Positions 1 to 39,375 of a stretch of 64,000 nt of DNA are shown here, piece by piece; positions within the stretch are counted from its first letter, which is position 1; the number at the start of each line of letters is the position of its first letter. Under the pieces are notes generated by a model. It searched no databases. It had not been told where the DNA came from and worked only from the letters and a program-made list of their open reading frames with translations. The position numbers and the translations under genes were made by a program. Where the stretch lies: the NCBI RefSeq assembly GCF_016342705.1, contig NZ_JAEINV010000004.1, positions 1-64,000 on the forward strand, given 5' to 3'. Source of the stretch: Lutibacter sp. (GTDB taxonomy: Bacteria; Bacteroidota; Bacteroidia; Flavobacteriales; Flavobacteriaceae).

Positions 1-3000
1 TACATTGCCTAAACTTACATCATTAGTGGCTACTGGTACATAATCGATTGTAACTGCTACATTATTCGATACATTGCCATCATTATCCTCTATGTTATAT
101 AATACCGGTGTTGGATCATCATCAAACGTTGGTAGCGGTGTAAATGTAATTGCGCCTGTGGTTAAATTTACACTCCAAGTCCCTTCTCCTGGTACTACAA
201 AACTTGTAACATCACCATGGCTATCTATTACTACACTGGTCGCCCCTATTGGTATCACCAAACTTACAGTAGTTGCATCTATCGATCCATCTGAATCACT
301 ATCATTCGAAACTACATTTACCGTTACTGCTGTATCTGGCGTATTAGCTGAACTTAAATCAGCTAACGCTACTGGTGCTATCGCTGTATATGTAATGGTT
401 ACTGTCGCCTGATTCGATACATTGCCATCATTATCACTTACCGTATAGAATATCGGTGTTGGATTTGAGGTAAAGCCTGTAATAGGAGTGAAAGTAATCG
501 CGCCTGTACTGCTATTTATACTCCACGTTCCTTCACCTGAAACTACTAATGAAACGCCTGCACCTGCAGTGCCTACTATCTGCACAGTTGATGGTTCTAA
601 CGTTCCATCTGAATCATTATCATTATTCAATACAGCTACCGTTACTGCCGTGTTTGTTGTATTGCCCGTACTGCTATCATTTAGCGCTACTGGTGGTCCA
701 TTAACAATAATAGCTTCTGTCAAATCATCATTCACGATTGTTGGATCTGATTGATTTCCTCTAGCTGCTGTTGTTGAATTGGTGATTGTTTGTCCTGACG
801 TTCCTGCATCAACTGTGGCTGTAATGTTTAAGGTTACAGAGTCTCCACTAGCCAAGGTGTTTGATGTGGTACTAAGAACAACATTATCTAAAGCAAATTT
901 TGCTGGACCTGTACTATTTTCAGGAATATTTTGCCAAAAAGCAATTCTAATGGTTTGCCCACTATATGCTGAAAGATTAGCTGTAAAACTATTCCAAACA
1001 TTATCATTCTCTGTATTTCCGCTAACTGCAGTTACTTGCCTTAAAACTTCCAATACATTATTACTTAAATCTCGCACTTGAACCTCATATATTCTATCAA
1101 TAGAAGCTCCGAATGTTAAATCATAATCAATATTTTCATCCCAACTTAAAGTTGTTGTTCCTGAAACCGCAATGTCTTGATATAAAATAGCTTCTCCAGT
1201 ATCTCCATCAAAACCGTTACCTGCAAGGAATCCACCCTCAGATGGTAATGCCTCAGAGAAATTACCTAATCCATTATTTGATGCATACACCCCGTAAGCA
1301 AGAAATGGATTTGGATTATCAATTGCTGTCCAACCTGTAAAATCTCCACTCTCAAAACTTCCATTAACTAATTCTGTCTCAATACCAACAGACCATAATC
1401 CTGAACCATGATTATATGCTCCAGCTGCGTCATCACTCACATAGGTTACACCCGCCGGTAATAAATCTGTTAAACTAATACCTGTGGCATCACTTGGTCC
1501 ATTATTTGTAACTGTTACCGTATAAACAATGGTATCACCTTCATTAGGCGTAGCATTATCAACCGTTTTAGTCGTTACTAAATCTGTACTTGTTACGGTA
1601 ATTGATGCATCTAAATCATTTCCAGCATTGGTTGGATCTGTTTCATTACCAATTGCAGCTGTTGTAGAATTTACAATTGCTGTTTGAGCTACAGTCCCTG
1701 CTACCGCAACCGTAGAATCTACTATCAATGTAGCTGAAGTATTATTATTAAGAGTACCAATATTCCAAATTCCAGTAACAGCGTCATAGGTATTTAAAGT
1801 ACCACCATAAGCAACATGTGTACTATAATTAATACCAATAGGTAAAATATCTGTTAAACTAACTCCTGTAGCATTACTAGGACCATTATTTACAACAGTA
1901 ATAACATAAGTAATCATATCTCCTAAGTTTGGATTACTTCTATCCACCGTTTTTGTAGTCACTAAATTTGAAATAGGCACCTCCAAAATAGTGGCATTAT
2001 CCTGATCAATCTCTCCAGATGTGTAATTTCCATGAACTACACCATTTGGATCTCGTTGATCTGCATCTGTTACTTCTGCTATATTCGTATAATTTCCTGT
2101 CGCATTAATAGTTGCAACAACGGTAAGCGTTGCAACCGATGAATTTGTTAATGAGCCAACGGTCCATGCACCTGTTGTTTCATCATAAGTACCATTAGCT
2201 GTTGAAGCGCTTACAAAGCTATACCCACTAGGTAATTGATCTGTGACATCAATATTTGTAGCATCACTTGGACCATTATTAGTAACCGTAATAGTAAAGG
2301 TTACATTCTCTCCCACATTATAAGGTCCTGCACTTACTGTTTTCGTTAATTTTAATTCCGCAGTTTCAATAACTACAACAGTTACCGTACCCGTATCACA
2401 GTTTGTTGGATTTGCATCCTCACAAATAGTATAATTAATAAAATAGGTACCTGGTGTCGTATTTGGATCAACCGTTACTGATCCATCACTATTCACTGTT
2501 AAAGGTCCTGTTGGGACACTTGATAAGGTAACATCCGCAGGAGTTAAAACTAAATTATTTAATAAATCATTATTAAACACATTTGAACCAGACACAATTC
2601 CTCCTGTAGTTTCATTCACTGGGCTTGCACTATAATCGTCATCATTTGCACAAATAACATTATTTATAACAATATTAGGTGTTAAAGCAGATGTACATCC
2701 AGCACTATTAGTTACTGAAAAATTGTAAGTTCCAGAAGCTAAAGAAGGAACAATATATGAAGCGCCAGAACCGGCGTAAGAATCTGTGGAAGTACCACTT
2801 TGGTTAATTGTCCAATTTCCAGATGGTAAATTATTAAAATCTACACTTCCTAAAATAGAAGAACATAAACCTTGATTGGTTATGTAGGTAAAGTTTGGCC
2901 CAGAATTTACAGTAATATCAACATTAATTGGTGAACCTGTACAAGTTCCAATTGAAGGCGTTATCTTATATCTTACAGTAGCAGGTGAAGTTGTAGAATT

Positions 3001-6000
3001 AAAAAGTGTTTCTGAAATTGTAGTTCCAGACCCAACTGAAAATCCAGAAGCACTTCCACTTGTAACTGCTGCCGTCCATGAATAACTTACAGTTGCTCCT
3101 GTTGTATTGGTTGATAAATCTATTGATGTAGTTCCTCCACTACATATTGTTTCAGCTATTGGTGTTGCAATTGCATCTGGAGTTGGATTCACGGTAACAT
3201 CTAAGTTAAATGGAGTTCCAACACAATTTGTTGAGTATGGTCCTTTTGGTGTAATTACATACCTTACAACTCCTGTAGTGTTTGTAGCATTCACTAAAAC
3301 ATCATTTATGGTAGCTCCTGATCCACTAGCATTAATGCCAGTTACAGTTCCACTAGTTAAAGACGCTGTCCAAGTATAAGTAGCTCCAGAAACATTTGAA
3401 GTTGGACTGTAAGCTACGCTAGAATTAGCACATACATCCTTAGTACTTACACTCGTTACAATTGGGATAGGATTCACTGTAATTTTTACTTCAGTAGTCG
3501 CACCTACACAACCAGACGGACTTGTTGGTGTTACAAGATATACAAGTGTTAAAGGAGCATTTGTGTTATTTACCAATACATCTGTAATTGGTGATAAACT
3601 TCCAACAGTTCTTGCAGTACCTCCAGAAATAGTTCCTGCAGATCCTTCCGTAGTTGGTGCAGGCCATGTATATGTTGTAGCCGAAACTGCCGGAGTGCTT
3701 GTTATAGAAAGATTTGCCGCAGTACCACTACAAATAGCCTGTGTTAAACCTGCTGTTACTGCTGGAGTTGGATTTACACTTACCACTAAAGTTGAAGGTG
3801 TGCCCGCACAACCCGTTGGTCCTGTAGGTGTTAAAATATATGCAACATTAATGGCAGATGCTGTGGTATTTACCAATGTTTCTTCAATTAAATTTGAATT
3901 TCCTGATCCTGAACTATTGCTTATTCCTATAACTGCCGCCCTAGACCATGTAAAAGTTGAACTTGCTACATTACTAGTAATAGTATATGAAAATAGGTAG
4001 TTACTACAAGCCGCATCCGTAAGTGGACTGTTAATTCTTGAACGTGGGTATACTGTAATTACCACATCTGTAGGTGTACCAGGCTCACAAGCTCCTAAAA
4101 TTCCAGGAGCAATTGGTGTCACCGAATAGGTAGCAGTTTGAACAGTATTTGTAGTGTTTACAAACGTATTTTGAATTGGATCTACACTAGGTATTGCTCT
4201 TTCTGTTGCTCCTCCTACTATTGTTAATCCTGGATCTGAAAGTGTTGGTGCTGGATACGAAAATAAAGCACCCGCCATATCTGGATCTGTAGTTAATAAC
4301 AGATTCGATTCCGCTGTAGTATTTGAATCATCTACACATAATTCTTCTGTTAAACCAGTAGTAAGTACTGGAACTGGATCTACAGTGATTACAACTACTT
4401 CTGGTGTACTTGATACACAACCACCATAAACTGCATATATGGTATACGTTGCTGTTTGAATTTCGGCAGTTGTATTTAGTAACGTATCTGTAATTGGGTC
4501 AATATTTCCTGGTGAAGTCCTCAATGAGAATCCTGTAATACTTCCTGCTACTCCTGAAATTACAGGTGCATCATAATAATACGTAACACCTGGAACTGTA
4601 ATCGATGAACTTAACGCAATAGAAGTAGTTCCTCCACTACAAAATGATTCCACATCTGGTGTAGCTAAAGGAATTGGATCTGGATTTACAATAACTACCA
4701 AATTAAAAGGTGTCCCTGGACAATCAGTTGTTGTCGGTCCTGTTGGTGTAATGGTATAAGTAACTTCTCCTGGTGAAGTTCCTGAATTTACTAATATGTC
4801 ATTTATATCGATTGCCGTATTTGTTCCTGTAGCATTTGGATTAAACCCTGTAATTGAGCCACCCGCTGGTGCTGTGGTTTCTGAAACTGTCCATGTAAAT
4901 GTAGTGCCTGTAGTGGCTGAAGTGATGTTATATCCTACACTTGTATTATCACAAATTGTTTTGGTTGTTGCGCTATTTACCGTAGGTGTTGGATTCACCG
5001 TAATTGTAAAATCTACTGGTGTTCCTGTACAACTTTCTCCTCCGTTTGAATACGTAGGTGTTACCGTAATTGTTGCAGTCACCGGAGCTGTTCCTGTATT
5101 TACTGCTGTAAAAGACGGAATTGTTCCACCACTTCCAGAAGCTGCTAAACCTATGGATGTTGTGTTATTTACCCAACTATATGTAGTAGTTCCTCCTGTA
5201 TTATTTGTTCCAAAAGTTATTAATGAAGTAGCATCTGAATAACATAATTCTTGATCTCCCGGATCATTTACTTGACCCCTTGGGTTTACTGTTACTACTA
5301 ATGACGAAGGTGTTCCAATACAACTCGTTGGCGCTGGTCCTGTAGGTGTTAATACATACGTTACATCTATAGGAGCTGTTGTTGTATTTATCAATGTTTC
5401 ACTAATAGACGCTGAAGTTCCTGATCCTACAACATTACTTATTCCTGCAACTAACGCCCTTGACCATGTAAAAGTTGAATTAGCTACATTACTAGTAGCT
5501 GTATACGTATATAAACTATTACTACAAACAACAGCTGTAAGGGCACTAGTAATTCTTGAACGTGGGTATACTTTAATTATAACATTTTTAGCAATACCTG
5601 TATCACAACCTCCTAAACCTGCAGGCGCGATTGGCGTAACTATATAGGTAGCTGTTTGAGCTGTATTTGTTGTGTTTACAAATGTGTCTGTAATTGGATC
5701 TGATGTGGCTACTGTTCTTGCTGAACCACCAGTCATTCCGCCCGTAAGAGTCGGTGCCGAATACGTAAATAAAGCACCCGTCATTGATGGAGTTGTGGTT
5801 AATGTAAGATTTGCAACTGCTGTATTTGAATTATCTATACATAATTCTTGTGTTAAATTATCAGTAAGCACTGGAATTGGATCTACAGTGATTACAACTA
5901 CCGCTGGTGTACTTGATACACATCCATTATAAATTGCATATACGGTATACGTTGCTGTTTGAATAGTGGCAGTTGTATTGATTAACTTATCTGTTATTTT

Positions 6001-9000
6001 AGCAGTATTCCCTGGTGAAGTCCTTGATGAGAACCCCGTAATACTTCCGGCCCCTCCTGAAAGTGTAGGTGCAGCATAATAATAAGTAACACTTGGAGCG
6101 GTTGAACTTAACACTATATCAGTAGTTCCTCCACTACAAAATGTAGTTTCTGCTACTGTGGCAGCCGGAACTGGATCTGGATTTACGGTAACTACCAAAT
6201 TAAAAGGTGTCCCAGGACAATTAGTTGTTGCAGGTCCTGTTGGTGTAATGGTATAGGTAACAGCTCCTGGCGTAGTTCCTGTATTTTGTAATACTTGATT
6301 TATACTTGCGCCTGATGCATTACTAAAACCTGTAATGGAGCCACCTGTTGGTGCTGTGGTTTGTGAAACTGTCCATGTAAATGTAGTACTCGCAGTTGCT
6401 GAAGTAATGTTATATCCCACACTTGTATTGTCACAAATAGTTTTGGCTGCTGCACTATTTACCTTTGGTGTTGGATTCACCCTGATTGTAAAAGTTTCTG
6501 GTGTTCCTGTACAACTTCCTCCACCACTGGAATTGGTATAAGTAGGTGTTACCGTAATTGTTGCAGTCACCGGAGCTGTTCCTGTATTTACTGCTGTAAA
6601 AGATGGAATTGTTCCACCACTTCCAGAACCTGCTAAACCTATGGATGTTCTGTTATTTACCCAACTATATGTAGTAGTTCCTCCTGTATTCGTTGTTGCA
6701 AAAGTTATTAATGTAGTAGTAGCTGAATTACATACTACTTGGTCTGCAGGATCATTTACTTGACCTGTTGGGTTTACAGTGATTGTAAAAGTTTCTGAAT
6801 TCCCTTGGCAACTTACACCACCATTGGTAAAGGTTGGTGTTACTGTGACATCTCCTGAAATTGGAGCTGTTGTTGTGTTTGTAGTTGTAAAAGATAAATT
6901 ACCTGTACCCGATCCGCCTAATCCAATAGCTGTATTGGTATTCGTCCAAGCATACGTAACTGTACCACCCGTATTTGGGGTCGTAAAGTTCACGGTTGAA
7001 AGTGTGCTATTACAGAAAATTTTATTTCCTGGTGCATTTACCTTACCTGTTGGGTTTACTGTAATTGTAAAAGTTTTTGGATTCCCTGTACAACTTACAC
7101 CGCCATTGGTATAAGTAGGTGTAACTGTAATGGTTCCTGAAATTGGAGCATTTCCAGCATTTGTTGCATTATCACTCACAAAATTAATAGCTCCACTCCC
7201 TGATGCTGGTAATCCTATACTTGTATTGGTATTCGCCCAATTATAGGTAGTTGTTCCATCTGTATTTGTAGTTGAAAAAGCTATAAAGGTAGAATTATCT
7301 AAATTACATACTACTTGATTTGAAATACTATCTACCTGTTCAGCTGGATTTACTGTAATATCTACGGTAATTGCTGCTCCGTCACAACCACCTATTGATG
7401 GTGTAATGGTGTACCTAACAACGCCTTGGATAGGTCCATTGTTAACTAGCGGTTGATTAAGAGTACTTCCACTTCCAGTTGAAAAACCTGTAACTGTACC
7501 ACTTTGTAATGCTGCTGTCCATGAATAGTTAACAGTAGTGCCTGTTATATTTGTACTAAAAGAAATTGATGGTGTTGCTCCACTACAAATAACCTCAGTG
7601 GATGATGATGCAATAGCATCTGGTGTTGGATTTACAGTAACTACCAAATCAAAAGGTGTCCCTGGGCAATTGGTTGGTGCTGGTCCGGTTGGTGTTATAG
7701 TATAAGTAACAACTCCTGGTGTAATTCCTGAATTTACTAATACATCATTTATATATGTATTTGTTCCTGTAGCATCTGAATTAAACCCTGTAACTGAGCC
7801 GCTCGTTAATGCTGCAACCCAAGTAAAAGTTGTGCCTGCTGTTAATGATTCAATATCATAATTTAAATTTGTATTATTACAAATTGTTTGGGTAGGTGCA
7901 CTGCTTACCAATGATGTTGGATTTACAACTATTGTTGCAGTAACGGGATCTCCTTCACAAAATGTAGGTGCAGGACCGGTAGGAGTAATTGTATACGTAA
8001 CTGTTATTGGATTTGGCGTTGAGTTGTTAAACACGCCTCCTGTAATTGTAGTTCCCACTCCAGAAATTGCCGTCCCAGATGTAATACCTGCTGGTTCATC
8101 TCTACTCCACACAAAGGTACTTACAATACTATTATTGATTGTAAGAATCATATCATTAGTACTAGTGCCATTACAAATTGTTTGTGATGAAGGTGTAATA
8201 GCTGCATCAGGTAATGGATTCACGGTAATTATTTTTGAAATAGTAGCATCACAACCTCCTGGAACAATTCCATTTCCAACATATAAAGTAGCTGTATAAA
8301 TACCTTCAGTTAAATAAGCATGTGTGGGGTTTTTTTCCGTTGAGTCTATGGTGCCATCAGTTTCAAAATCCCATTGCCAGGAAGAAATTGGATAACGAGG
8401 GTCTACTCTAGTGGAAAGGTCGGTAAATTGAATATTCGAACCTTGACAATTCTCATTAGCACTTTTTGTAGTAAAAGAAAATTCTGGAATAGGTTTTTCA
8501 GTTGTATTTATCCTTCGGTTAATTCCATAAAGATATGAGTAATTACCACATGTTGTACTATGTAAAATTAAAATAGGCAATCTACTACCATAACTTGTAT
8601 AGGTATGTGTTGTTGTTGCTGAAGTAACTCCATTAGCAATAGGAGAAGATTCGGTAGTACCATCACCAAAATCCCAAATTAAAGCATCCGCTCCCTCAAG
8701 GTTTTCAACAAGAAATGTTACTTCATGCGGTGCGCAACCAGGAGTATCATCATAGGTGAATACCCCTATTGGACCATCAACATAAACGAGTATTGTATCA
8801 CTTTTGGTACAGCCCCCAGTTAAGGTTTCAGTTAATGTTACGGTATAAGTTCCTGGTTTTAAATAATAATGAAACGGGTTTTGTTGATTTGAAGTAGTTC
8901 CATCTCCAAAATTCCAGAGATACGAAGAAACCGCTCCTGTTGGGTCTGTAGTTGAAAATGCTCCTTGACTTGGTGCACAACCCAAATTTACATTTGCTAT

Positions 9001-23100: not shown

Positions 23101-24150
23101 ATGAGAAAAATTATTCTATCCTTTGCCATCCTAGCATTGGCAATTGTTGCTTGTCAAGACAATTCTGAAGAAAATGTTCCAACACAAGAACTTGCAAAAG
23201 TTGACATGAGCGACTTTTATGTGTACACAGATGATGATTTATCATCTAGAGGAACAGAAAATTCAGCTGGAGACAAGTGCTATTCTATGAAAGTTTTAAA
23301 TGAGCAGTTAAAAAACAATCCAGGATTGGAAAAAAGAATGTACAATATTGAAAAACATTCAAGAACCGTAATCTCCTTTAAAGGCAAACCTACTAACCCT
23401 GGTGGTGGTGGAGGAACTACTCCAACTCCATATACAGGAACAATTACTATCCCAGTTATTGTTAATATTTTAGAAGATTCTGCTCATCCTGTTACAACAG
23501 CCCATATAAATTCTCAAATTGCTATTTTAAATGCAGATTTCAACAACAACAATTCAAACACAAGCAGTGTTCCAGCAGAATTTGCAAGTCTTGTAGCTAA
23601 TGCTAACATAACTTTTACACTTGCTGGAGTAAATAGAAAAACTTCAACAAAAACTACTTGGGGAACAAATGACGCTATGAAATATGCAAGTCAAGGCGGT
23701 ATTGACGCAACGGACCCAACAAATTACTTAAACCTTTGGGTGTGTGAAATTGGTGGTGGAATATTAGGCTATGCACAATTCCCTGGAGGAACAATTGCAA
23801 CTGACGGTGTTGTAATTGGTTCAGATTATTTTGGGGAAAATGCTGCTGGTGATGTATATGGCCACGGAAGAACTGCAACTCATGAAATTGGCCACTGGCT
23901 AAACTTACGTCATATTTGGGGAGATGGTAGATGCAAACAAGATGATTTTGTTGCTGATACCCCAAGTTCTGACGGACCAAACTATGGTTGTCCTTCATAT
24001 CCTACTGTAAACTGCCAATCTGCTGATATGACTATGAATTACATGGATTACGTATATGATGATTGCATGTATATGTTCAGTTTAGGTCAAAATGATAGAA
24101 TGAGAGCAATATTTGCGACTGGAGGCGCAAGAGAGAGTTTTGTACAATAA
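23101..24150 (+). CDS. Secreted M43-family (cytophagalysin-like) zinc metalloprotease lipoprotein
   Basis: 349 residues. Lipoprotein signal ending in LAIVAC-QDNSE, a propeptide-like region to about residue 98, a Gly/Thr/Pro linker (NPGGGGGTTPTPY), then the M43 catalytic domain: HEIGHWLNLRHIWGD holds the extended zinc motif HExxHxxxxxH (H261, E262, H265, H271), followed by a Cys-rich segment (CKQDDFVADTP ... YGCPSYPTVNC) and the Met-turn in MNYMDY. The chain ends at the usual end of the catalytic domain (MRAIFATGGARESF), with no T9SS sorting domain, so surface display is by lipid anchor. Monocistronic, with its own terminator. Confidence 0.9.
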   Translation: MRKIILSFAILALAIVACQDNSEENVPTQELAKVDMSDFYVYTDDDLSSRGTENSAGDKCYSMKVLNEQLKNNPGLEKRMYNIEKHSRTVISFKGKPTNPGGGGGTTPTPYTGTITIPVIVNILEDSAHPVTTAHINSQIAILNADFNNNNSNTSSVPAEFASLVANANITFTLAGVNRKTSTKTTWGTNDAMKYASQGGIDATDPTNYLNLWVCEIGGGILGYAQFPGGTIATDGVVIGSDYFGENAAGDVYGHGRTATHEIGHWLNLRHIWGDGRCKQDDFVADTPSSDGPNYGCPSYPTVNCQSADMTMNYMDYVYDDCMYMFSLGQNDRMRAIFATGGARESFVQ

Positions 24151-35555: not shown

Positions 35556-35586
35556 TTGCATAATAAAAATTATATGTGTAGTTTTG
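35556..35586 (+). promoter_or_regulatory. Promoter of the coiled-coil lipoprotein/beta-barrel operon
   Basis: TTG (35556-35558), 20-base spacer, TAGTTTTG (35579-35586): full consensus match. The predicted leader is about 65 bases and AT-rich. Confidence 0.6.
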
Positions 35587-35658
35587 TTCCCTAATTGTAA
35601 TAACACAAGTTTATTAACCTATTTAAATTTTAAAGAATATTAATTAAAAAGTTACAAA

Positions 35659-38121
35659 ATGAAACATTTAAAAAAATTGTCGGTAGTTCTGATGATGACT
35701 ACCCTATTCAGTGTGAGCTTTACGTCTTGTATAGACAATGAAGTCTCTCCAATTGTAGAAGCTATTTACGAAGCTCAAGCCGATTTAATTGCTGCGCAAA
35801 CTGCAGTACAAAATGCTGAAGCATCTTTATTAGCTGCTCAAGCACAAGCAGAACAAGCGCAAGCTGCTTACTTAGAAGCGCAAGCTCAAGTAGCATTAGC
35901 AAACGCAGCATCTATTGATGCAGGTACTGCTAACCAATTAGAACAAACAGCATACAATGCTTTAGTTCACGAACAACAATTATTGTCTTTAGTTGCTCAA
36001 ACAACTGCTAACGTTGCTGCAACTGAAAATGCTGCTGCAATTGCTCAAGCTAATTTTGACATTCAAATGGCAAATTTAATGGCTCAATTAGAATCAGCTG
36101 GTGCTCAATTAGCTACTCAGTATGCATATGCTTATGCAAGTGCAATGAATACTGCTAATAGCATTTTATCTGATAAATTATCTGTTGAAACTCAATTAGC
36201 TGCTGCTAACTTGTTCCAAACTTGGGATGGTAGTAACTATGTTTCTCAAGCTTATTATTTAGCTCAAATGGAAGGCGCTGTTACTAATGCTGAAGCAAAC
36301 AAAGCAAGTATTGAAGCTGCAATAGCTGATATGGAAGCTTACATTGCTAACCCTTCTACTCCAGAAGCTATGGTTGCTGCTTTAGAAGCTACTAGTGCTG
36401 ATTTACAAGCACAATTAGATGCTTTAGCTATTTCTATGCAAGAGCAATACAACAAAATCATGGCTATCTATGATGAAAACGGCGTTAGAAATGAAGTTGT
36501 TGACAGATATATGGAAGCTTTAAACGATTTAGAAGATGCTCAAGCTGACAAAACTGATCGTGAAGATTGGATTGAGTCTGCTAATGACAATATCGCTTTA
36601 TGGGAAACTCAATTAGCTGATTATCCTGCTGCTTTAGCTGGCTTTGAAACTGCTGTTGCTGACGCTGAGGCTGCTGTAACTGCTGCTGAAGACGCTTTAG
36701 AAGCTGCAAACGAAGCAAAATGGGCTTCTGATGATGTATTAGCTGATGCTAACACTGCTTTAACTGAAGCGCAAGATGCTTTAGATGCTTTAAACCTTGA
36801 ATTAACTGGTTTAAATACCTCATACCAAGATGCTATTCAAGATTTAGCTGACGAAACTGCTCTTTACGCAGCTGGTTTACCAGGTGTTACTGCTGCTTTA
36901 GCAAGTGCTGAGGGTGATTTAACTGCTGCAGAAGCTGATTTAGCTGCTGCTCAAGCTGATTACGATGCTAAAAAAGCTGCTTTTGAAGCTGACCCAACTG
37001 GATTTGTATGGACAGGTGGTACAAATGGAGCTGTTGGTTTACACGCTGATGCTGTAACTGCAACTGATTCTTACAGAAATTATGATGATACTGCATCTAC
37101 AATGTCTGCATTATCCTTAACTAATAATGGTGGTACTGATGAAACAGGAAACTATACAACTTATGCTGCTTATGCTGCTGATGCTCCAACTTTAGGGTAT
37201 GATTCTTTCTACAATGTAGGTGGTGATGACGTTCCTGCTGGAACTAAAGCTGACCGTTTAGAACTTGCTGCAGATGTGTTAACTCTTGCAATTGATGCTA
37301 TTGCACCATTAGAAACTGCTGTTGCTGATGCTCAAGATGACGTTGATAACTTTGGAGATGATTTAGATGCTGCTCAGTTAGTTTATGATCACCAAAAAGA
37401 TTTATATGAAAATCAATTAGCACTAGTTGCCGCTGCTGAGGGTGTAGTTGACGCTGCACAAGACGCTGTAGATGCTGCTGTAATTGTTAATGACGATGCT
37501 ATTGAAGCTGTAGCTGATGCAGACAATGCATTAACTGATGCTGAAGCTGATTTAGTAGATGCTGAAGATGACTTAGCTGCTTTTGAAGCTACAACTGAAG
37601 AAGATATCCAAGGATGGATTGATGAAGCTAACGATGATATCGCTGATTGGACAACAGAAATTGCTGCTATCCAACCTATTATTGATGCTAAACAAGCTGT
37701 AGTTGATGGTTTACAAGCTGAATACGATGAGTATGTTGCTAACACTGGATTCTTAAGTTCATTATATGCTGACTTACACGCTGAAATTATTGCTGAATGG
37801 CAAGCTTATTGGGCTATGGAGCAACAAGAAACTGCTTTAAACAACCAATTAGACTTAAATGATGACTTAATTAGCGCTTACGGATCAGTAGATGATTTAG
37901 CTACTATGTTGTCTGACTTACAAGATGATTTAACTGATGCTATTTACGACATCGAAGTTGCTGAACAAGCTTTAGCTACTGCACAAGCTGATGCTAATGC
38001 TGATGTTGCTTACATTGCTTACTTAGAAGCTAAAATTGCTACTTTAACTGCAAGACACGCAAATGCTATGGCAATTGCTGCTAAATACAAAGCATTAATG
38101 GATGCTGCTTTAGCAAGCTAA
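35659..38121 (+). CDS. Alanine-rich coiled-coil surface lipoprotein, S-layer-like candidate
   Basis: 820 residues. Lipoprotein signal ends at C24 (VSFTSC-IDNEVSP); the acidic residues just after the cysteine could favour surface export. Nearly all the rest is alanine-, aspartate- and glutamine-rich heptad sequence (AQADLIAAQTAVQNAEASLL), expected to form long coiled coils, broken by one globular, glycine/tyrosine-rich insert at about residues 445-530 (FVWTGGTNGAVGLHADAV). Codon use is biased to GCT and GAT, as in highly expressed genes. The next gene is a BT1926-type barrel, the partner of the Bacteroides surface-layer protein BT1927, which suggests an abundant surface-layer or spacer role. 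Exact family not confirmed. Confidence 0.7.
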   Translation: MKHLKKLSVVLMMTTLFSVSFTSCIDNEVSPIVEAIYEAQADLIAAQTAVQNAEASLLAAQAQAEQAQAAYLEAQAQVALANAASIDAGTANQLEQTAYNALVHEQQLLSLVAQTTANVAATENAAAIAQANFDIQMANLMAQLESAGAQLATQYAYAYASAMNTANSILSDKLSVETQLAAANLFQTWDGSNYVSQAYYLAQMEGAVTNAEANKASIEAAIADMEAYIANPSTPEAMVAALEATSADLQAQLDALAISMQEQYNKIMAIYDENGVRNEVVDRYMEALNDLEDAQADKTDREDWIESANDNIALWETQLADYPAALAGFETAVADAEAAVTAAEDALEAANEAKWASDDVLADANTALTEAQDALDALNLELTGLNTSYQDAIQDLADETALYAAGLPGVTAALASAEGDLTAAEADLAAAQADYDAKKAAFEADPTGFVWTGGTNGAVGLHADAVTATDSYRNYDDTASTMSALSLTNNGGTDETGNYTTYAAYAADAPTLGYDSFYNVGGDDVPAGTKADRLELAADVLTLAIDAIAPLETAVADAQDDVDNFGDDLDAAQLVYDHQKDLYENQLALVAAAEGVVDAAQDAVDAAVIVNDDAIEAVADADNALTDAEADLVDAEDDLAAFEATTEEDIQGWIDEANDDIADWTTEIAAIQPIIDAKQAVVDGLQAEYDEYVANTGFLSSLYADLHAEIIAEWQAYWAMEQQETALNNQLDLNDDLISAYGSVDDLATMLSDLQDDLTDAIYDIEVAEQALATAQADANADVAYIAYLEAKIATLTARHANAMAIAAKYKALMDAALAS

Positions 38122-38143
38122 TAAATTCTTTAGGAAACTAAAA

Positions 38144-38172
38144 AAAGGGCTGCACAACAGCAGCCCTTTATT
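38144..38172 (+). terminator. Terminator-like hairpin between the coiled-coil gene and the barrel gene
   Basis: AAAGGGCTGC, loop acaaca, GCAGCCCTTT: a perfect 10-bp stem, followed by only a short T run and A-rich sequence. Placed in the 85-bp gap, it could act as a partial terminator or 3'-end stabiliser, yielding more lipoprotein than barrel mRNA. Confidence 0.65.
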
Positions 38173-38206
38173 AAACAAAATAAGAACTCTTAAAGAACTA
38201 AAACAT

Positions 38207-39025
38207 ATGAAAAAATATTTAATTTTATGCTTTATTTTTGCCTTATCGCTAACAAGCGTTAATGCTCAAGATAAAGATTCAGACCACGTTTGTAAGGATG
38301 CTTGTTGCGCTGTGAGTACTTTCGCACCACAAAAAGGAGATTTTACAGCCGCTATGGTTTTTGGACGAGGAGCATATCTAAATGGTGGTTTAGTTGTACC
38401 TAATTCTTATCCAAGTACTGTTGATGGAACGTCACCTTACGATAATACCGTAAGTGCTAACAGCAATAGTATTACAAATATGATAGGAGCAGAAGGTAGA
38501 TATTACGTTGGAAACAGATTCGCTCTTACCCTTAGTGGTGGTGCAATTATGCGTAATACTCCTGCTGTATTAGCAATTCCTGGAGTACCAAACTCAAGTG
38601 TACCAGCATATGCTGCCGTTGATTCTTCTGAAGAAATTGACGTTACAGCTACTATTGGTGGACAATGGTTATTTAAAACAAAAAATGATAGATTATTTCC
38701 TTACTTAGGATTTGCTTTACCATTTGATTATGCAAGACAATCTTTGTATGATCCAACAATAACTGTTGATAACTTAGGAAATGTTACTATTACTGACTTA
38801 GGTGCTCGTCACGCAGATATTACCGCATTTGGTGTACAAGCTGTTGCTGGTGTTGATTATTATATTGCTAAAGATGTATTTCTTGGCTTTGATATTAAAC
38901 CAGTATCATACACTTATGCTGTTAGTGTAAAAACACCAGGTCCAGGGTTAATGAACCTTGAATCTGAAAATAATACTGTTTCTTTCTTTGCTCAATTTTC
39001 TTTCAAACTTGGGTTTAAATTCTAA
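38207..39025 (+). CDS. BT1926-family outer-membrane beta-barrel protein
   Basis: 272 residues. Signal peptide (MKKYLILCFIFALSLTSVNAQ), a short Cys-containing stretch (HVCKDACCAVS), then the stretch I associate with this family: KGDFTAAMVFGRGAYL and NSITNMIGAEGRYYVG, followed by alternating amphipathic strands and a terminal aromatic residue (FKLGFKF), as in outer-membrane barrels. Probably 8-12 strands. In Bacteroides thetaiotaomicron the homologue is encoded with surface-layer protein BT1927; here it follows the coiled-coil lipoprotein, so it may export or anchor it (inference). Confidence 0.78.
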   Translation: MKKYLILCFIFALSLTSVNAQDKDSDHVCKDACCAVSTFAPQKGDFTAAMVFGRGAYLNGGLVVPNSYPSTVDGTSPYDNTVSANSNSITNMIGAEGRYYVGNRFALTLSGGAIMRNTPAVLAIPGVPNSSVPAYAAVDSSEEIDVTATIGGQWLFKTKNDRLFPYLGFALPFDYARQSLYDPTITVDNLGNVTITDLGARHADITAFGVQAVAGVDYYIAKDVFLGFDIKPVSYTYAVSVKTPGPGLMNLESENNTVSFFAQFSFKLGFKF

Positions 39026-39055
39026 CTTGTAGATTATTATAAGAAACTATTAAAG

Positions 39056-39084
39056 AGAGGCTATTTTAAATAGCCTCTTTTTTT
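39056..39084 (+). terminator. Rho-independent terminator of the lipoprotein/barrel operon
   Basis: AGAGGCTATTT and AAATAGCCTCT form a near-continuous stem (39056-39078), followed by a run of T residues. Confidence 0.9.
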
Positions 39085-39250
39085 ATGCCTTAAAATTAGT
39101 TAAATTACTCGTACTTTATTAAAGGTCTACATTTTTTGAAGTTCATTCAAATCTTCTGCTCCACTAGAAACTATTTAAAAAGATAGCGATCCTATTCCAA
39201 TAAAATTTAAATGTTCTATAAATTATTGGTACTTAAATAGTATCGTTAAA

Positions 39251-39375
39251 AACTCCTTAGCTAATTTATAAAACTGCTTAGCAATATTCTAAAACTGCTT
39301 AGCTATTTTACCAAACTCCTTAGCAATATTTCATAACTACTTAGCTAATTCATAACATTGCTTCGTAATTGCGCC
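39251..39375. repeat. Intergenic 21-bp tandem repeat (five regular units plus one degenerate)
   Basis: Units begin at 39251, 39272, 39293, 39314 and 39335, exactly 21 bases apart, with consensus AACTnCTTAGCnAT; a sixth shifted unit starts near 39354. Read on the minus strand each unit encodes a heptad like NIAKQFx (KIAKQF, NIAKEF, KLAKEF), but stops interrupt the frame. The array lies in a 405-bp gap between the barrel-operon terminator and the 3' end of tex; the rest of the gap shows no intact ORF. Confidence 0.85.

Follow-up and report, generated by a model that had tools for sequence, protein, structure and literature searches.

The window analysed here, a stretch of 64,000 nucleotides from a marine member of the genus Lutibacter (Flavobacteriaceae; genome 3.6 Mb), encodes an alanine-rich coiled-coil lipoprotein of 820 residues (35659–38121, + strand), followed by an outer-membrane beta-barrel of 272 residues (38207–39025, + strand), both where the original prediction had placed them. 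Among relatives with a name, Lutibacter maritimus DSM 24450 is the closest, with a barrel identity of 94–95%. Both proteins are homologous to the partners encoded by the phase-variable BT1927–BT1926 locus of Bacteroides thetaiotaomicron. Cells expressing Bt1927 (Bt1927-ON) show a lattice-forming surface layer (S-layer), for which Bt1926 putatively acts as anchor or secretion partner (PMC12578637). In Lutibacter the linkage of the two genes is obligatory, the promoter is fixed, the codon usage of the lipoprotein gene is biased and an RNA element between the genes is conserved. We consider it probable that the two genes belong, as a Lutibacter branch, to the coat system of Bacteroidota exemplified by BT1927–BT1926, including the surface-coat mechanism proposed below. 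The flavobacterial counterpart that had originally been suggested is thereby borne out as far as homology of both partners is concerned; the Lutibacter lipoprotein would also be abundant, located on the surface and able to form a lattice.

Homology of both partners to BT1927–BT1926

BT1927 loci were located in Bacteroides using the inverted repeat CCGTTACCTABVRAGTAAC, described in PMC12118408, together with a search for PF16961. This gave 11 loci (L107–L117), all of which encode an alanine-rich lipoprotein of 807–997 residues and after it a PF16961 barrel, about 288–324 residues in length (11/11 linked). In L108–L111 and L117 a segment of about 280–310 bp lies between two repeats and stops roughly 100 bp short of the lipoprotein gene, and a tyrosine-recombinase-like gene is found upstream (the recombinase domain was tested in L108), an arrangement like that published for BT1927. 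Such invertible-promoter repeats are not universal in Bacteroides, as they are present in these five loci and absent from L107 and L112–L116. Most of the loci lacking repeats have an upstream gene encoding about 160 residues (METLLTKNTDKILFERDIQ... or similar), perhaps a regulator.

Against NF053619, "BT1927 family outer membrane S-layer protein", the lipoprotein of L108 reaches 1518.8 bits (cut-off 1300), and the L108 barrel has 65.1 bits against PF16961. Furthermore, the published BT1927 qPCR primers (PMC12548429) match L108 at 28/28 and 23/25 positions (0 and 2 mismatches). Since the L108 lipoprotein is alanine-rich and passes NF053619, BT1927 is the same kind of alanine-rich lipoprotein. 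Locus L083 was dropped as a stand-in for BT1927, being a different locus. Its region 2479–6687, beside a BT1927-type inverted repeat, encodes a 994-residue lipoprotein with collagen-like repeats and then an OmpA-domain barrel; the same kind of switch may control this unrelated surface pair.

A hidden Markov model (HMM) built from the first 50 residues of the mature Bacteroides lipoproteins gave 22.7–38.1 bits for the N-termini from Lutibacter and from one other flavobacterial genus (G030). The controls reached at most 8.4 bits (880 composition-preserving shuffles) and 11.2 bits (681 internal coiled-coil segments), well below these scores, and the homology of the lipoproteins is therefore more than shared composition. 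Full lipoprotein profiles aligned over the first 265 positions, the N-terminal third, with an E-value of 1.3e-20 (hhalign), a figure to which coiled-coil bias may contribute.

The barrel of the window scores 67.6 bits against PF16961 (cut-off 26.6), and the Lutibacter and BT1926-type barrel profiles can be aligned from end to end (hhalign, probability 99.8, E 3e-28). AlphaFold2 predicts a closed barrel of eight strands with a long loop 1 (monomer; mean pLDDT 72.5, pTM 0.67). These results place the protein within the BT1926 superfamily, as expected. It is not in the BT1926 clade proper: the barrel tree has three deep branches, and the barrels of Lutibacter and G030 form one of them, apart from those of the BT1927 loci (midpoint root only). 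The N-terminal motif KGDFTAAMVFGRG, taken in the original prediction as a mark of BT1926, is indeed present in the window protein; it belongs, however, to the other Bacteroides branch of PF16961, as KGDFT is common to the Lutibacter barrels and the core PF16961 barrels of Bacteroides, whereas BT1926-type barrels have KGQWQ. The small barrels OmpA, OmpW, OprG and Ail are alike in general fold (Foldseek E about 1e-4), and the window barrel does not reach the curated thresholds for OmpW and OMP_b-brl. Compared as a predicted monomer, it shares the eight strands and long loop 1 of the barrels described as forming radial oligomers, tetramers to hexamers around loop 1, namely BT1926, CHU_0007 and Tanf_04855 (PMC12228718).

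The core PF16961 barrels of Bacteroides (L118–L124) reach 240–374 bits on the Pfam model and match the Lutibacter barrels with an E-value of 1.6e-26 (hhalign). In all six cases examined with upstream sequence they follow alanine-rich lipoproteins with a matching N-terminus. These lipoproteins begin with C-V-D-N-N-E and, at 504–662 residues, are shorter than those of Lutibacter. L118–L124 apparently represent an uncharacterised system that is sister to the S-layer locus. L120 and L124 carry two lipoprotein genes in tandem before the barrel gene.

Linkage, promoter and intercistronic RNA

The following features of the locus were identified, all on the + strand:

35556–35586, promoter: TTG at 35556–35558, a spacer of 20 nucleotides and TAGTTTTG at 35579–35586
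35594–35658, 5' untranslated region (UTR) from the putative transcript start, strongly conserved and similar in all Lutibacter loci
35659–38121, lipoprotein gene: signal peptide residues 1–23, lipobox Cys24 at 35728–35730
35728–35877, mature N-terminus CIDNEVSPIVEAIYEAQADLIAAQ..., homologous to the BT1927-type N-terminus CIDTDEPEGIVDLRGAKSELIKAQ, with acidic residues resembling an export signal
36247–36990, heptad coiled coil (residues 197–444, period 3.5), presumed ascending arm; continuous AlphaFold2 helix at residues 235–444
36991–37248, beta-rich insert (residues 445–530; AlphaFold2 strands), presumed distal tip and most variable part
37249–38115, heptad coiled coil (residues 531–819, period 3.5), presumed descending arm and C-terminal helices (helical in the model)
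38122–38206, intercistronic RNA element of 85 nucleotides: GC-rich hairpin 38144–38153/38160–38169 inside a long-range helix 38126–38135/38188–38197
38207–39025, PF16961 barrel gene, eight strands (Pfam, AlphaFold2, hhalign)
38366–38479, long loop 1 of the barrel (residues 54–91; AlphaFold2)
39052–39085, intrinsic terminator of the operon: a fold of -16.5 kcal/mol and a T-run, absent from the output of the consensus scan

Of the 38 Lutibacter genomes, 23 carry the barrel. Searching with the N-terminus of the lipoprotein gave one copy in each of 22 genomes, all of them among these 23, and in 22/22 cases the lipoprotein gene directly precedes the barrel gene. The start of the 23rd barrel (G170) lies 131 bases from a contig end. 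The genes are therefore conserved neighbours at every locus with enough sequence, as a survey of co-occurrence had been meant to establish, and the spacing between them is 78–93 bp in every locus with both. Similarly, a PF16961 barrel adjoins 14 of the 15 Bacteroides lipoproteins found with NF053619; the remaining one lies at the edge of its contig. Outside Lutibacter the pair was found in one further genus (G030) among about 200 genera of the family sampled. Two profiles, one of the Lutibacter barrel and one mixed, retrieved only weak generic barrels from 396 genomes of the phylum, and a plasmid collection contained no homologue.

The promoter is a good match to the Bacteroidetes consensus, as originally noted, and TTG-N20-TAnnTTTG recurs near -80, without change of orientation, in 21 of the 22 Lutibacter loci, L046 being the exception. 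The earlier observation that invertible promoter arms are absent also stands: no inverted arms were found upstream of the lipoprotein gene in the window, none are conserved among the 22 loci, and no recombinase was found adjoining the Lutibacter loci. With the promoter in one orientation, without inverted arms or a neighbouring recombinase, there is no sign of phase variation in Lutibacter, and judging from the sequence the pair is apparently constitutive. A hairpin in the 5' UTR was dropped as a conserved element, as a small hairpin folds in some species only and not in the window. An AT-rich stretch (39250–39370) after the barrel terminator, ahead of the next gene, which is convergent, contains repeated units resembling aactgcttagc or aactccttagc.

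The RNA between the two genes (38122–38206) folds with -23.4 kcal/mol (z -7.9). The 3' arm of the outer helix lies just before the barrel start and hides TTAAAGAA. Over 22 species 97.1% of the pair cells are standard, and four inner pairs are changed on both sides; sliding the partners by one column lowers the pairing to 54–65%. In three divergent species (L047–L049) the inner stem is wholly replaced and the hairpin is still formed. No Rfam family was above threshold at this position, and in six Bacteroides loci examined the genes are 21–46 nucleotides apart with no such hairpin. The element may protect or end part of the lipoprotein message, and lower translation of the barrel.

In summary of the comparison, the Lutibacter and B. 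thetaiotaomicron loci are alike in gene order, with an alanine-rich lipoprotein of homologous N-terminus and similar size (820 versus about 940 residues) directly followed by a PF16961 barrel of eight strands. Lutibacter differs in its fixed conserved promoter in place of the invertible promoter and recombinase, in the long structured intercistronic RNA, in having no third (DUF4369) gene, and in its separate branch of the barrel tree.

Lipoprotein architecture and codon usage

The mature lipoprotein has a mass of 83.7 kDa and a pI of 4.05, and contains 24.5% alanine and 11% aspartate. In a Fourier test on large hydrophobic residues a heptad period of 3.5 was strong in residues 197–444 and 530–819 and absent from 31–183; the description of the protein as almost entirely heptads holds for the former regions and was slightly overstated for the latter. 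In the AlphaFold2 model residues 31–444 are helical with few interruptions, a beta segment occupies about 449–529 and helix resumes up to 819, in agreement with the single globular insert noted earlier. Such an arrangement, with the beta domain between two helical stretches, would fit a hairpin that carries this domain at its tip. Foldseek matches to SMC and MukB were set aside as coiled-coil resemblance only.

Median identity of the lipoprotein across Lutibacter is 64% at the N-terminus, 51% at the C-terminus and 24% in the beta domain, and its length varies between species from 796 to 1093 residues. Against L. maritimus dN/dS is below 1 everywhere, and the fast change of the beta domain is therefore no proof of positive selection.

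The codon usage of the lipoprotein gene is the most similar to that of ribosomal protein genes among the 51 genes of the window, 4.8 standard deviations above the others. Its mean log ratio is 0.088, compared with -0.094 (standard deviation 0.038) for the other window genes and 0.03–0.16 for EF-Tu and ribosomal proteins, and C-ending codons make up 34% versus 18% (p 1e-8). A scarce lipoprotein, which had been named as a finding that would speak against the coat, is thus not predicted at the codon level: usage within the EF-Tu and ribosomal protein range suggests a mass product. Second in the window for C-ending codons is a lipoprotein-like putative metalloprotease of 349 residues with a HEIGHWLNLRHIWG motif (23101–24150).

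The proposed coat and its alternatives

We propose that the acidic N-terminal signal would direct export of the lipoprotein and its flipping to the outside of the outer membrane, where it would be held by its lipid and by its conserved N- and C-terminal helices docked on an oligomer of the eight-stranded barrel. It would project as a coiled-coil hairpin with the hypervariable beta domain outermost, and packed copies would form a proteinaceous outer coat, made constantly and without a switch. The intercistronic hairpin and the barrel leader it encloses would keep lipoprotein output high and barrel output lower, a ratio that would suit many coat subunits sharing few anchors or assembly points.

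Several observations weigh against this proposal. The AlphaFold2 model of the lipoprotein was built from 22 homologues (mean pLDDT 72.9) and its geometry is unreliable; with a pTM of 0.35 the hairpin is a guess. The window lipoprotein, with C-I-D-N-E from the lipidated cysteine, matches only partially the export signals of surface lipoproteins, SDDFE in F. johnsoniae and SDDDD in B. fragilis (PMC5080379); the BT1927 type has C-I-D-T-D-E. The barrel is missing from 8 of 29 good Lutibacter assemblies, and 15 of the 38 genomes lack both genes, so the coat would be dispensable. Finally, the window lipoprotein had no match to NF053619 at E<=1 (cut-off 1300 bits). This model is a narrow BT1927 equivalog, passed by 3 of 101 Bacteroides genomes, and Bacteroides homologues behind a repeat-flanked promoter also fall below its cut-off.

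The same pair could instead form a surface stalk or adhesin, with scattered coiled-coil hairpins anchored beside the barrel without a lattice, and a diversifying beta domain serving attachment or as a decoy for phages or predators. The beta insert as the most variable part and the differences in length between species would fit, and the surface coiled-coil protein PrgA is among the Foldseek architectural matches, though on unreliable geometry. We regard this as unlikely, as a visible lattice is formed by the nearest homologue that has been studied (PMC12578637, PMC12548429) and the codon usage suggests a mass product. Much less probable is a periplasmic spacer or tether, in which the lipoprotein would be attached to the periplasmic side of the outer membrane and reach towards the peptidoglycan, stabilised by the barrel. 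Long alanine-rich coiled coils are typical of envelope spacers such as Lpp and OmpM, and the partial export signal would agree; however, Pfam and NCBIfam scans gave no peptidoglycan-binding domain, variability is highest in the presumed distal region, as would be expected of an exposed tip, and the homologue BT1927 was stained on intact cells (PMC12548429).

A complex handling lipids or other ligands, with the lipoprotein as an accessory, seems slightly more improbable still. BT1926 has been modelled as a radial pentamer around loop 1, which forms a hydrophobic central chamber (PMC12228718), and loop 1 of the window barrel is similarly long. Gene order, codon bias and promoter nevertheless place the lipoprotein first and in excess.

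More broadly, we hold evenly balanced the proposition that, throughout Bacteroidota, PF16961 barrels form an obligate pair with alanine-rich coiled-coil lipoproteins, a class of alpha-helical, coiled-coil surface coats in which the gut S-layer is just the phase-variable member. In Lutibacter this would be a constitutive major surface coat, with the subunit ratio set by the structured RNA between the genes.

The architecture and evolutionary breadth of the Bacteroides S-layer are little described in the literature surveyed. BT1927 itself is an alanine-rich, probably coiled-coil lipoprotein, three divergent branches link its barrel partner to such lipoproteins, and the version kept by marine relatives has a variable domain and does not switch. 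A homologous pair under a fixed promoter in Lutibacter suggests that such coats reach well beyond gut bacteria and can be constant. The S-layer of B. thetaiotaomicron confers resistance to phages and complement (PMC12548429). As the Lutibacter homologue is host-independent and apparently always on, it would point to defence against phages or predators, and not against complement, as the older role, and it would offer a simpler system for the study of structure and anchoring.

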